From NCBI GenBank assembly GCA_903825245.1, contig CAIJZX010000013.1, positions 1 to 61,258 of the forward strand: 61,258 nucleotides of DNA. Reading direction: 5' to 3'. Every line of letters starts with the position of its first letter. The stretch's first letter is position 1. The position numbers and the translations under genes are program-made. This DNA is from Candidatus Kerfeldbacteria bacterium. GTDB taxonomy: Bacteria > Patescibacteriota > Patescibacteriia > SBBC01 > CAIJZX01. A model generated the notes under the pieces. It saw only the letters and a program-made list of their open reading frames with translations, had not been told where the DNA came from and ran no database searches. Of the stretch, positions 20,403 through 43,476 are shown piece by piece.

Positions 20403-20569
20403 TTGCGAAAGCGGGCGACCTTGTGTCGTCCGTCTTCGCAATTGGGAATCGGGGGTCAAAGCCGACTCGTGCGCCGCGGAGCGGAGAAAGCACAAGCGGC
20501 CGGTTCCGAAGGAGACCCGTACCCTCCGCGGTTCGGGTCGGATGAGGAAGACTCCCTTCTCCGGCACCA
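20403..20569 (+). other. tRNA-Leu trailer hairpin and duplicated tRNA 3' end
   Basis: Directly after the tRNA, an 18-base arm beginning at ATTGCGAA (20401) pairs with 20424-20441 with few mismatches; the CCA lies at its base opposite TTGG. A GC-rich stretch follows with the stem CCGCGGAG/CTCCGCGG. Bases 20550-20564 then repeat the last 15 bases of the tRNA T-arm and acceptor (20383-20397), followed by CACCA. Confidence 0.7.
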
Positions 20570-28993: not shown

Positions 28994-29156
28994 GGGTCTT
29001 TTGCATGACATTGCTCGTGCCAAGAACTCTGGTGTAAAAACTACGCTAAGGAGTCGAAGGGTGCGCCCAACGGAAGCACCCCGGCCCCACAGGGGCGACT
29101 CCCCCACCCGCAACCAGGGTTTTCTCCAAGTCACCGACGTGGCGAGAACCTTGGTT
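28990..29156 (+). other. tRNA-fMet trailer hairpins and duplicated tRNA 3' end
   Basis: An exact 25-bp direct repeat: 28973-28997 (T-arm, acceptor, CCA and four more bases) recurs at 29096-29120. Each copy is followed by its own hairpin starting at ACCAGGGT: about 28990-29033 closing on CTCTGGT, and about 29113-29156 closing on CCTTGGT. Their loops differ. Between them is another hairpin, GGGTGC/GCACCC. Confidence 0.75.
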
Positions 29157-36260: not shown

Positions 36261-36327
36261 GGGTTATGTGCCAATGCAACCTACTACCGTTTGACCCACG
36301 TGGGTCGGCTCCGATAAAAGATTGTAT

Positions 36328-36460
36328 TGGCGGAGGAGGAGAGACCTGCCTGCCGGCAGGCAGGTTCGCCCAGCGAAGCCGGGTCCGGCTCTGCCGGAAA
36401 CTCTCGATACGGGTTTAACCCCGTATAACAGCCCCGGATCGGAGTCCGGGGCTGCCGCTT
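36328..36460 (-). other. tRNA-Ser(GCT)-like copy with replaced anticodon arm and split T-loop
   Basis: Compared with the intact tRNA at 36501-36594 this copy keeps the base of the anticodon stem (GGCAG/CTGTT), the long variable arm and the T-stem/acceptor 3' side ending in CCA (36328-36330). In place of the anticodon loop stands a perfect hairpin CCCCGGA-CTCCGA-TCCGGGG (36432-36451). The T-loop is opened by about 54 bases including TCCGGCAGAGCCGGA and the palindrome at 36345-36364. The 5' acceptor half is missing. Confidence 0.75.
36345..36364. repeat. CCTGCCT palindrome, copy 1
   Basis: CCTGCCTGCCGGCAGGCAGG, a perfect 20-base palindrome, directly precedes (in tRNA sense) the T-stem of the tRNA-Ser-like copy. 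Related palindromes are at 43477-43496 and, shorter, in the ABC exporter leader near 25145. Confidence 0.75.
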
Positions 36461-36500
36461 AACGGCAACCTTTATTACTAAATTTCACTTAGTGATTTTT

Positions 36501-36594
36501 TGGCGGAGGAGGAGAGATTCGAACTCTCGATACGGGTTTAATCCCGTATAACAGGTTAGCAACCTGCCGCCTTCAGCCACTCGGCCACCCCTCC
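36501..36594 (-). tRNA. tRNA-Ser (anticodon GCT)
   Basis: 94 bases with encoded CCA. Acceptor GGAGGGG/CTCCTCC (one G-U), D-arm GCCGAGTGGCTGAAGGC, anticodon arm GCAGG-TTGCTAA-CCTGT, long variable arm, T-arm GAGAG/CTCTC. Leader and trailer are complementary: AGTGATTTTTTGG before the tRNA pairs with CCAAAAAATCACT, which starts at the CCA, giving 13 extra pairs. Confidence 0.92.
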
Positions 36595-36644
36595 TCCAAA
36601 AAATCACTATTGTTTAGGAACATCTTTGGTTAACGATCTTTGTT

Positions 36645-36908
36645 GGCGGAGGCGGAAGGATTCGCCCGGCTAAGCCGGGCCGGGGTTGCTTTTCGCAATC
36701 CGTCTCGCCTGTTGGCTCGACCCTTCGAGACCCTTTCCCGCGCCAGGGCGGAGGGGGCGAGATTCGAACTCGCGAGACCCTTGCAGGTCTGACGGTTTTC
36801 AAGACCGTTCCCTTCAACCACTCAGGCACCCCTCCGCTCCGGCGCGGTGATATGACCGTCGCTGGAGTTTATCCCGATGAAAATCGGGAGCCACTCAGCC
36901 ACGCCTCC
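36645..36908 (-). other. Broken outer tRNA-Ser enclosing tRNA-Ser(TGA)
   Basis: The 5' fragment (36889-36908) is acceptor GGAGGCG plus D-arm. The matching 3' end (36645-36665) is T-stem CCTTC, acceptor CGCCTCC, G, CCA. The acceptor halves pair perfectly. Between them lie a CCCGAT/ATCGGG hairpin in the D-loop, the complete tRNA-Ser(TGA) where the anticodon arm should be, a piece of variable arm and T-stem (AAGGGTCTCG, GAAGG), and an insert of about 57 bases in the T-loop containing CCCGGCTTAGCCGGG. Confidence 0.75.
36749..36835 (-). tRNA. tRNA-Ser (anticodon TGA)
   Basis: 87 bases to the discriminator G; the next three bases are CCC, so CCA is not encoded. Acceptor GGAGGGG/CCCCTCC, anticodon arm ACGGT-CTTGAAA-ACCGT, variable arm GACCTGCAAGGGTC, T-arm GCGAG/CTCGC. 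Flanks 36836-36847 and 36738-36749 (CCGCGCC/GGCGCGG core) are complementary over 12 positions with one mismatch. Confidence 0.9.
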
Positions 36909-36929
36909 ATTAGTCCGTAAAGCCCGATG

Positions 36930-36958
36930 AATATACAACATCTTGCCGAAGAAATCAA
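36930..36958 (-). promoter_or_regulatory. Promoter of the tRNA-Ser locus
   Basis: Minus strand TTGATT (36953-36958), 17 bases, TATATT (36930-36935). Start near 36923, just before the outer tRNA-Ser 5' fragment. Confidence 0.65.
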
Positions 36959-37043
36959 CAGTTTCGTCTATATCAGAAAACTGTAATTACGTTGGGTTTC
37001 CCCGTGGTATACTAGGATTATAGTTCAGTTGCATTAGAACTCC

Positions 37044-37325
37044 ATGAACCACGAATTCCCTTTCGACAAAAAACGCGAGCATCAGGCCTCTTTTGACGTC
37101 GCCACTCTGGCAATCAAACGGGCGGAGCAAGCCGGTCGTGCATTGGACGACGTATTTATTGAAGAAGCCGCCGCTGAGGTGCACGCCGCTTGGGAAGAGC
37201 GGAATGCCTGGCGGGCGGAAAAACGAGATCTCGTCGTCTACCACGAATTGCCGGAAAGCGAAAAAGTAAAAGATCGTACCTTTGTCCGCGAAGCACTTAC
37301 TCAACGACAACTGATACAGTTATGA
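37044..37325 (+). CDS. Small RyR-domain-like protein
   Basis: 93 residues. VHAAWEERNAWRAEKRD followed by VVYHELPESEKVKDR resembles the ryanodine-receptor (RyR) repeat found in small bacterial proteins, with the W, Y.eLpe.eK.kDR spacing. The stop overlaps the next start (ATGA). TGG-TATACT (37008-37013) lies 30 bases upstream of the ATG. Confidence 0.65.
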   Translation: MNHEFPFDKKREHQASFDVATLAIKRAEQAGRALDDVFIEEAAAEVHAAWEERNAWRAEKRDLVVYHELPESEKVKDRTFVREALTQRQLIQL

Positions 37326-43026: not shown

Positions 43027-43411
43027 GGAAGCCCCCGCCTGGGCGCCCGTAGCTCAGCCTGGATCCCGTACAACCGCTGCGCGGTCTACGGGGCAAGTGC
43101 TGCATCAGCGAAATATTGTACCTAAAAACCATTCCTAAGTAGCATTTTTTCTGACCTGGGCGCCCGTAGCTCAGCCTGGATAGAGCATCAGCTTGCGGAG
43201 CTGAGGGTCGTAGGTTCAAATCCTGCCGGGCGCACCAGGTCAGAAAAAATCTTGCGGAGCTGAGGGGTCGAGGTGGTCGGCGCAAGCCGAGCAAGTAAAC
43301 TGCTTTACTTGCGACCGCCGAGACGGGCAGCGCGATGTTCCACAGGAACAGCGATGCCCCCCCGGACGTAGGGTTCCAGAGTTTCGTCGGGCGCACCAGG
43401 CGGGGGCTTCC
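43027..43411 (+). other. Broken outer tRNA-Arg enclosing tRNA-Arg(GCG)
   Basis: Outer pieces in order: GCGCCCG acceptor and D-arm (43043-43064); a D-loop insert with the stem CCCGTA/TACGGG; GCATCAG (43111-43117); an insert holding the whole inner tRNA and its flanks; CTTGCGGAGCTGAGGGG (about 43251, anticodon loop and 3' stem); a T-arm insert with GCAAGTAAA/TTTACTTGC; and CGGGCGCACCA (43388-43398). Outer leader 43027-43042 is exactly complementary to trailer 43396-43411 (16 bp). Confidence 0.75.
43160..43237 (+). tRNA. tRNA-Arg (anticodon GCG)
   Basis: 78 bases with encoded CCA. Acceptor GCGCCCG/CGGGCGC, D-arm GCTC/GAGC, anticodon arm TCAGC-TTGCGGA-GCTGA, T-arm GTAGG/CCTGC (one G-U). Leader TTTTTTCTGACCTGG (43145-43159) is exactly complementary to CCAGGTCAGAAAAAA (43235-43249), which starts with the CCA. 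Confidence 0.92.
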
Positions 43412-43476
43412 AGATGTACGAGCTTTTTTGTATTGGGATCGGGAGCCTGTCCCGGTTTAGGTTTCCGGAACTGCCG

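Follow-up and report, generated by a model that had tools for sequence, protein, structure and literature searches.

A broken tRNA-Ser enclosing an intact tRNA-Ser(TGA) in a Candidatus Kerfeldbacteria genome, and a structured insert that recurs at tRNA genes of its class

Introduction

Rickettsia palindromic elements and REP/MITE-type repeats are short, hairpin-forming elements that occur in many copies and enter genes, and attachment sites in the anticodon loop and the T-loop are known for integrating elements. A 2025 preprint, cited in PMC12641178, deals with tRNA introns of Patescibacteria, going by its title. Structured RNA can also be inserted in bacterial tRNA genes, the anticodon region included, as reviewed for group I introns (PMC3984707). 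For the disrupted tRNA genes of Caldiarchaeum, insertion of a mobile element was proposed as the cause (Sugahara et al. 2012, PMC3293823); there, an intact tRNA has a fragment of its own kind close by, and the authors describe 1.8 kb with a recombinase, and functional introns. Among the titles and abstract openings that we searched, which covered few subscription papers and no preprints, nothing describes a nested tRNA arrangement.

Here we analyse a contig of a small, uncultured bacterium of Candidatus Kerfeldbacteria, 61,258 nucleotides long and called the window below (GCA_903825245.1, CAIJZX010000013.1), in which a broken tRNA-Ser encloses an intact tRNA-Ser(TGA). The locus shares with Caldiarchaeum (PMC3293823) the closeness of an intact tRNA and a matching fragment; in contrast to that case, the inserts here measure tens of bases to about 100, are structured and gene-less, lie in a bacterium and at many tRNAs, and the intact tRNA is inside the broken one. 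They resemble group I introns as structured inserts in tRNA genes, but no Rfam group I model matches them and the window copy yields no intact outer tRNA.

Results

Anatomy of the serine locus

On the minus strand, the ends of the outer tRNA-Ser (36908-36644) surround the intact tRNA-Ser(TGA), and hairpin inserts sit in the outer D-loop and the outer T-loop (Table 1). The acceptor GGAGGCG/CGCCTCC and the T-stem GAAGG/CCTTC both still pair perfectly. The original prediction had placed the 5' acceptor strand at 36902-36908, where it lies, and had read the sequence and pairing of the 3' strand correctly, but the latter occupies 36648-36654 and not 36649-36655; its T-stem halves also stand, while its insert of about 57 bases becomes about 55 above the normal 7-nt T-loop, with 62 nt between the halves. 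The outer ends align with the intact tRNA-Ser(CGA) of the genome over 18 nt at the 5' end (94%, E 0.01) and 21 nt at the 3' end (21/21, 100%, E 5e-6), and thus are not chance matches. The 3' strand of the anticodon stem, the 5' strand of the variable arm and the anticodon itself are lost, and the first of these losses makes a functional outer copy improbable. We assign it to Ser(TGA) and not Ser(CGA) from the stem piece GACGGTC and from the relative G001; its 3' end is closest to Ser(CGA).

Table 1. Features of the window at and near the serine and arginine loci
Feature	Coordinates	Strand	Basis or remark
Promoter-like site TTGATT, 17 nt, TATATT	36930-36958	-	Upstream of outer tRNA; consensus match only
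Outer 5' piece GGAGGCGTGGCTGAGTGGCT: acceptor 5' strand, D-arm to D-loop	36889-36908	-	Ser(CGA) alignment; same-acceptor intact tRNA-Ser(TGA) in G001
Outer 5' acceptor strand GGAGGCG	36902-36908	-	
D-loop insert (D-element): hairpin CCCGATTTTCATCGGG and tail ATAAACTCC	36864-36888	-	Recurring 13-mer CGGGATAAASTCC
Hairpin CCCGATTTTCATCGGG of the D-loop insert	36873-36888	-	
Outer 5' anticodon-stem piece AGCGACGGTC, as in tRNA-Ser(TGA)	36854-36863	-	By-eye comparison with G001 gene
Inner cassette left flank TCACCGCGCCGGA, left arm of 9-bp inverted repeat	36838-36850	-	Similar flank in G002, G005, G035
Inner intact tRNA-Ser(TGA)	36746-36836	-	54.4 bits; sole Ser(TGA) gene found in genome
Inner cassette right flank CTGGCGCGGGAAA, right arm of inverted repeat	36734-36746	-	Sequence, fold, relatives' loci
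9-bp inverted repeat around inner tRNA	36839-36847 with 36738-36746	-	
Outer 3' variable-arm part and 5' T-stem AAGGGTCTCGAAGGGTCGA	36717-36735	-	89% to Ser(CGA), E 0.2
Outer T-stem halves GAAGG, CCTTC	36722-36726, 36655-36659	-	
T-loop insert, read as minimal R1-type element GGGTCGAG..CGAGACGG..CCCCGG	36679-36723	-	R1 model, 15.3 bits
Second hairpin of T-loop insert GCCCGGCTTAGCCGGGC	36664-36680	-	Sequence and fold
Outer 3' piece: T-loop end, T-stem, acceptor 3' strand, CCA	36644-36664	-	21/21 with intact Ser(CGA)
Outer 3' acceptor strand CGCCTCC	36648-36654	-	
Intact tRNA-Ser(GCT) with flanking inverted repeat	36501-36594	-	
tRNA-Ser(GCT) partial copy, T-loop palindrome	36328-36431	-	Anticodon-loop palindrome just upstream
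Broken tRNA-Arg around intact tRNA-Arg(GCG) (43160-43237), R1 at 43265-43366	43043-43421	+	Parallel case, same design as serine locus

What stands of the promoter proposed upstream is a promoter-like site with 9/12 matches (shuffle mean 0.4 per region), the sole such site within 36300-37050; it likely drives the inner tRNA. The whole nested transcript folds unusually well (z -5.0), much of this coming from the inner tRNA. The inverted repeat around the inner tRNA scored 6.5, under the 99% shuffle limit of 7.0.

The genome holds intact genes for all four serine anticodons (GCT, TGA, GGA, CGA), which rules out the outer tRNA-Ser as the only copy of an essential tRNA. The same-genus genome G001 has, beside Ser(GCT), a tRNA-Ser(TGA) that is unbroken and shares the acceptor of the outer piece, GGAGGCG/CGCCTCC; the gene order there, Ser(GCT) then Ser(TGA), is opposite to that of the window, so G001 supplies no exact empty site. 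With the anticodon and its 3' strand lost, the serine anticodons intact elsewhere and the same acceptor on an unbroken gene in G001, the suggestion of a separate, functional outer tRNA finds no support. Downstream of the intact tRNA-Ser(GCT), a partial copy of it (36328-36451, minus strand) has palindromes in its anticodon loop and T-loop and encloses no tRNA.

Broken self-copies at other tRNA genes

The window's own genome (G000; 1.30 Mb in 42 contigs, with a listed completeness of 100%) gives 52 tRNA matches with the Rfam model and 51 tRNAs with ARAGORN, run on stretches taken from the genome; flanking inverted repeats exceed the 99% shuffle limit at 14 of the 51. Each intact tRNA was aligned to its two 300-nt flanks. 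Reversed queries and antisense flanks provided the controls (top score 15.0 in G000, 13.5 in G002, its sister genome), and sense-direction fragments were counted when they scored over 99% of these. A fragment of the same tRNA lies within 300 nt of 19/51 intact tRNAs in G000 (9 upstream, 14 downstream, 4 on both sides and thus nested) and of 26/47 in G002 (13 upstream, 23 downstream, 10 nested). The window's Ser(TGA) locus passes on the upstream side only and hence stands outside the four nested loci of G000; its downstream pieces fall below the threshold with its own sequence and are detected with Ser(CGA) as the query.

Of the inner breakpoints, 15/36 in G002 (p 3e-7 against uniform) and 2/23 in G000 lie in the anticodon loop. 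Nested breakpoints abut in G002, moderately only (median 2.5, p 0.036; mean p 0.010), with pairs joining at 35/38, 33/34, 32/34, 35/35, 24/25 and 15/19 and the remaining 4 of 10 less close; at the four nested loci of G000 they lie apart (median gap 11.5, p 0.83). Two outer threonine tRNAs of G002 retain all stems, and the threonine copies there would nearly give a complete tRNA on removal of the inserts (both by eye). At Pro(CGG) and Arg(GCG) the inner and outer pieces are identical across the matched stretches, and foreign replacement as a general rule was dropped on this ground.

The nested design, predicted at the arginine locus and seen there, is indeed a pattern that recurs at other tRNA loci in G000 and its relatives. 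We agree that shared loop breakpoints, given this recurrence, point to a mechanism. An assembly chimera, which had been named as a danger, is ruled out by recurrence in several genomes at different sites. Recurrence at many tRNA genes of the lineage points to an undescribed tRNA-seeking insertion element.

Three further observations concern the same genomes. T-loop-to-CCA 3' fragments of tRNA-Leu(CAA) and tRNA-Met lie at 20550-20569 and 29096-29116, 90-150 nt from intact tRNAs. Several tRNA genes of G000 have no encoded CCA (e.g. C9:15685, C37:3849, C37:12057), the flanking inverted repeat beginning immediately. In G002, a tRNA-Thr(CGT) copy (L121, G002:C1:738300-739700) keeps most other parts, has R1 in its T-loop and shows no intact copy within the stretch (by eye).

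The R1 insert family

R1 is an insert type of about 100 nt with a structured fold, modelled from five inserts of G000. The model matches 8 times in G000, in 31/144 genomes of the class (E 0.01; 0 to 15 copies per genome) and in 3/239 genomes of the phylum (E 0.001), G000 being one of these, so that R1 is essentially confined to the class. Over 51 distinct sequences, in an alignment that was fitted to the model, 90.1% of cells pair and two-sided changes occur at 36 of the 38 pairs, values that 0 of 500 shuffles reach and that exceed all slid controls. Searched against Rfam 15 to E 5, 15 loci of G000 gave, besides tRNA, only matches below threshold, sX4 and plastid UTR models among them, and no intron family. 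The window's T-loop insert scores 15.3 bits against R1 (E 0.0031 in 701 nt, filters off), and from this match we read it as a minimal relative.

Of 53 matches, two were listed twice owing to overlapping loci and one, L119 549-683, was weak; 50 copies remain once these are removed. A tRNA fragment is directly abutted by 22 of these, mostly in the D-loop, at a threshold that passes about 5%; no recognisable tRNA piece is abutted by the other 28, and local flank duplication is significant at only 16/50. For the strand count, 37 loci were reduced to the 32 having a tRNA within 200 nt, and R1 lies on the same strand as the nearby tRNA in 31. R1 also terminates protein-gene fragments in G002: at L119 and L125, broken msrA starts (three versions) and a dus start end in R1 just upstream of the intact gene (by eye; genes named from the reading frame, not a family search). 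In other class members (L106, L108, L110, L111, L112, L115, L117) the R1 match starts in the T-arm of the intact tRNA, whose 3' half might base-pair with the downstream strand, GGGATTCGAA opposite TTCGAATCCC (by eye).

A wide exact-pattern scan of contigs gave mostly chance matches. When 22 of the 80 loci listed were checked with R1, two matched, one in Patescibacteria (28.4 bits) and one on a Ca. Kerfeldbacteria contig (77.1 bits), the latter with the score and position found in G007 (same order), which sets the lineage near Ca. Kerfeldbacteria. A search with recG yielded no named relative.

Cassette flanks, enzymes and origin of the copies

The 42 serine tRNAs tested came from 30 genomes with a serine locus (G000 included); fragments occur in 8 genomes and 4 nested tRNAs in 3, so the nested form is lineage-restricted. 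Serine tRNAs of G002, G005 and G035 are enclosed by nearly the same short flanks as in the window, at different tRNA positions: TCACCGC..GGYGCGGGA is common to these and G000, in the D-loop in G005 and the anticodon region elsewhere (by eye). The cassette end GGTGCGGGATCCCGYC is rare, with four matches in 3/144 genomes, one of them coding-like and with no tRNA in its locus; cassette mobility therefore rests on few cases. The D-element 13-mer has 21 matches over 38 genomes, against 1 for the reversed control.

Searches for Y1_Tnp gave no match in G000, G001, G004 and G005 and matches in 23/38 genomes; RVT_1 matched in 8/19 genomes and not in G000. The RtcB ligase matched in 1/19 genomes and not in G000, which makes RtcB splicing of the outer halves unlikely there.

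Similarity between intact tRNAs and their fragments ends at the mature tRNA ends. Identity is 0.92 and 0.91 within fragments (n=11 and 22) and falls in the flanks beyond to 0.35 against 0.29 for random and 0.34 against 0.26. With flanks near random and not co-duplicated with the tRNA, local tandem duplication is disfavoured. The pattern fits a tRNA unit imported from elsewhere, or copying through mature tRNA. The counts comprise sense-direction fragments, the antisense flanks having gone into the control. Selection may explain the sense bias, since an antisense insertion in the only copy would be lethal.

Discussion

We propose, at a probability of about 0.7, that the outer tRNA is a decayed native gene whose loops were opened by small structured mobile elements and which was replaced by the copy that it encloses. 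The outer molecule would be what is left of an older tRNA-Ser(TGA) gene of this lineage: a D-element would have entered its D-loop and a minimal R1 element its T-loop, and a hairpin cassette with a complete tRNA-Ser(TGA) would have entered the anticodon loop. The complete inner copy would then have taken over the function, probably transcribed from the promoter of the old gene, and the outer pieces would have been decaying since. Copies of the elements, as DNA or as RNA, may enter loops that lie exposed, and selection may retain only those events after which one intact, sense-oriented tRNA remains. Several observations count against this explanation: Y1_Tnp and RVT_1 have no match in G000, nested breakpoints lie apart there and abut only moderately in G002, flank duplication is significant at only 16/50 R1 copies, 28/50 adjoin no recognisable tRNA piece, the gene order in G001 is reversed, and the outer 3' end is closest to Ser(CGA). 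The almost uniform sense orientation of R1 (31/32) also suits a function at the RNA level.

Three other explanations were weighed. First, ordinary integrase scars, in which elements attach at tRNA loops, rebuild the tRNA, leave 3' fragments and are later lost, are an unlikely source of the locus. The known anticodon-loop and T-loop attachment sites speak for them, as do six downstream fragments in G000 that follow an intact tRNA, begin in the T-loop and extend to or near the 3' end. However, the inserts measure about 25-150 nt, too short for an integrase gene, and have a conserved RNA-like structure; they also lie in D-loops and at several tRNAs per genome and end protein-gene fragments, and attachment does not usually leave an intact copy flanked by 5' and 3' pieces that complement each other. 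A similar model, which speaks in their favour, has been proposed for Caldiarchaeum (PMC3293823). Second, R1 could make up, together with the outer tRNA parts, a conserved RNA domain with a regulatory or processing role, which would govern how the enclosed or an adjacent tRNA matures. The strong covariation of R1, its strand bias and the matches that begin in an intact tRNA's T-arm and continue into the 3' flank all agree with this, but the copy number of R1 and its target tRNA vary among genomes, and R1 breaks tRNA copies and occurs in protein-gene fragments, so we hold such a role to be quite improbable. Third, it is very unlikely that the outer tRNA functions, with the inner tRNA and the loop hairpins removed as introns and the outer halves joined to give two tRNAs per gene: the perfect acceptor and T-stem pairing, the complete stems of the two G002 threonine copies and the transcript fold (largely that of the inner tRNA) would suit it, but the window copy has neither anticodon nor 3' anticodon strand, serine tRNAs are redundant, RtcB has no match in G000, and 15 loci of this genome gave no group I intron match to E 5. 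The inserts are also far shorter than group I introns, and unlike the excision of such an intron, their removal from the window's outer copy leaves a tRNA that is incomplete.

The inserts resemble Rickettsia palindromic elements and IS200/IS605-derived REP/MITE repeats in being short, multi-copy elements with a conserved fold that enter genes. They differ in their preference for tRNA loops, in the multi-helix, covarying R1, in cassettes that carry a tRNA and in a genome, G000, with no Y1 transposase match. More tentatively, and with a likelihood that we place short of even, they may be a new class of gene-less, structured, tRNA-seeking mobile elements of Patescibacteria, which would insert hairpin into hairpin at tRNA loops in the sense orientation. 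Some would carry a complete tRNA that replaces the broken one, thus nesting generations of tRNA, and their copying may pass through mature tRNA.

In G002, half of the tRNA genes have a broken self-copy nearby, and R1 adds a covarying structured family with no match in Rfam 15. If true, our explanation would account for the tRNA debris that gene finders meet in these genomes. If such elements both break tRNAs and supply the replacement, they would offer a route, open to testing, by which bacterial tRNA genes become disrupted and nested.
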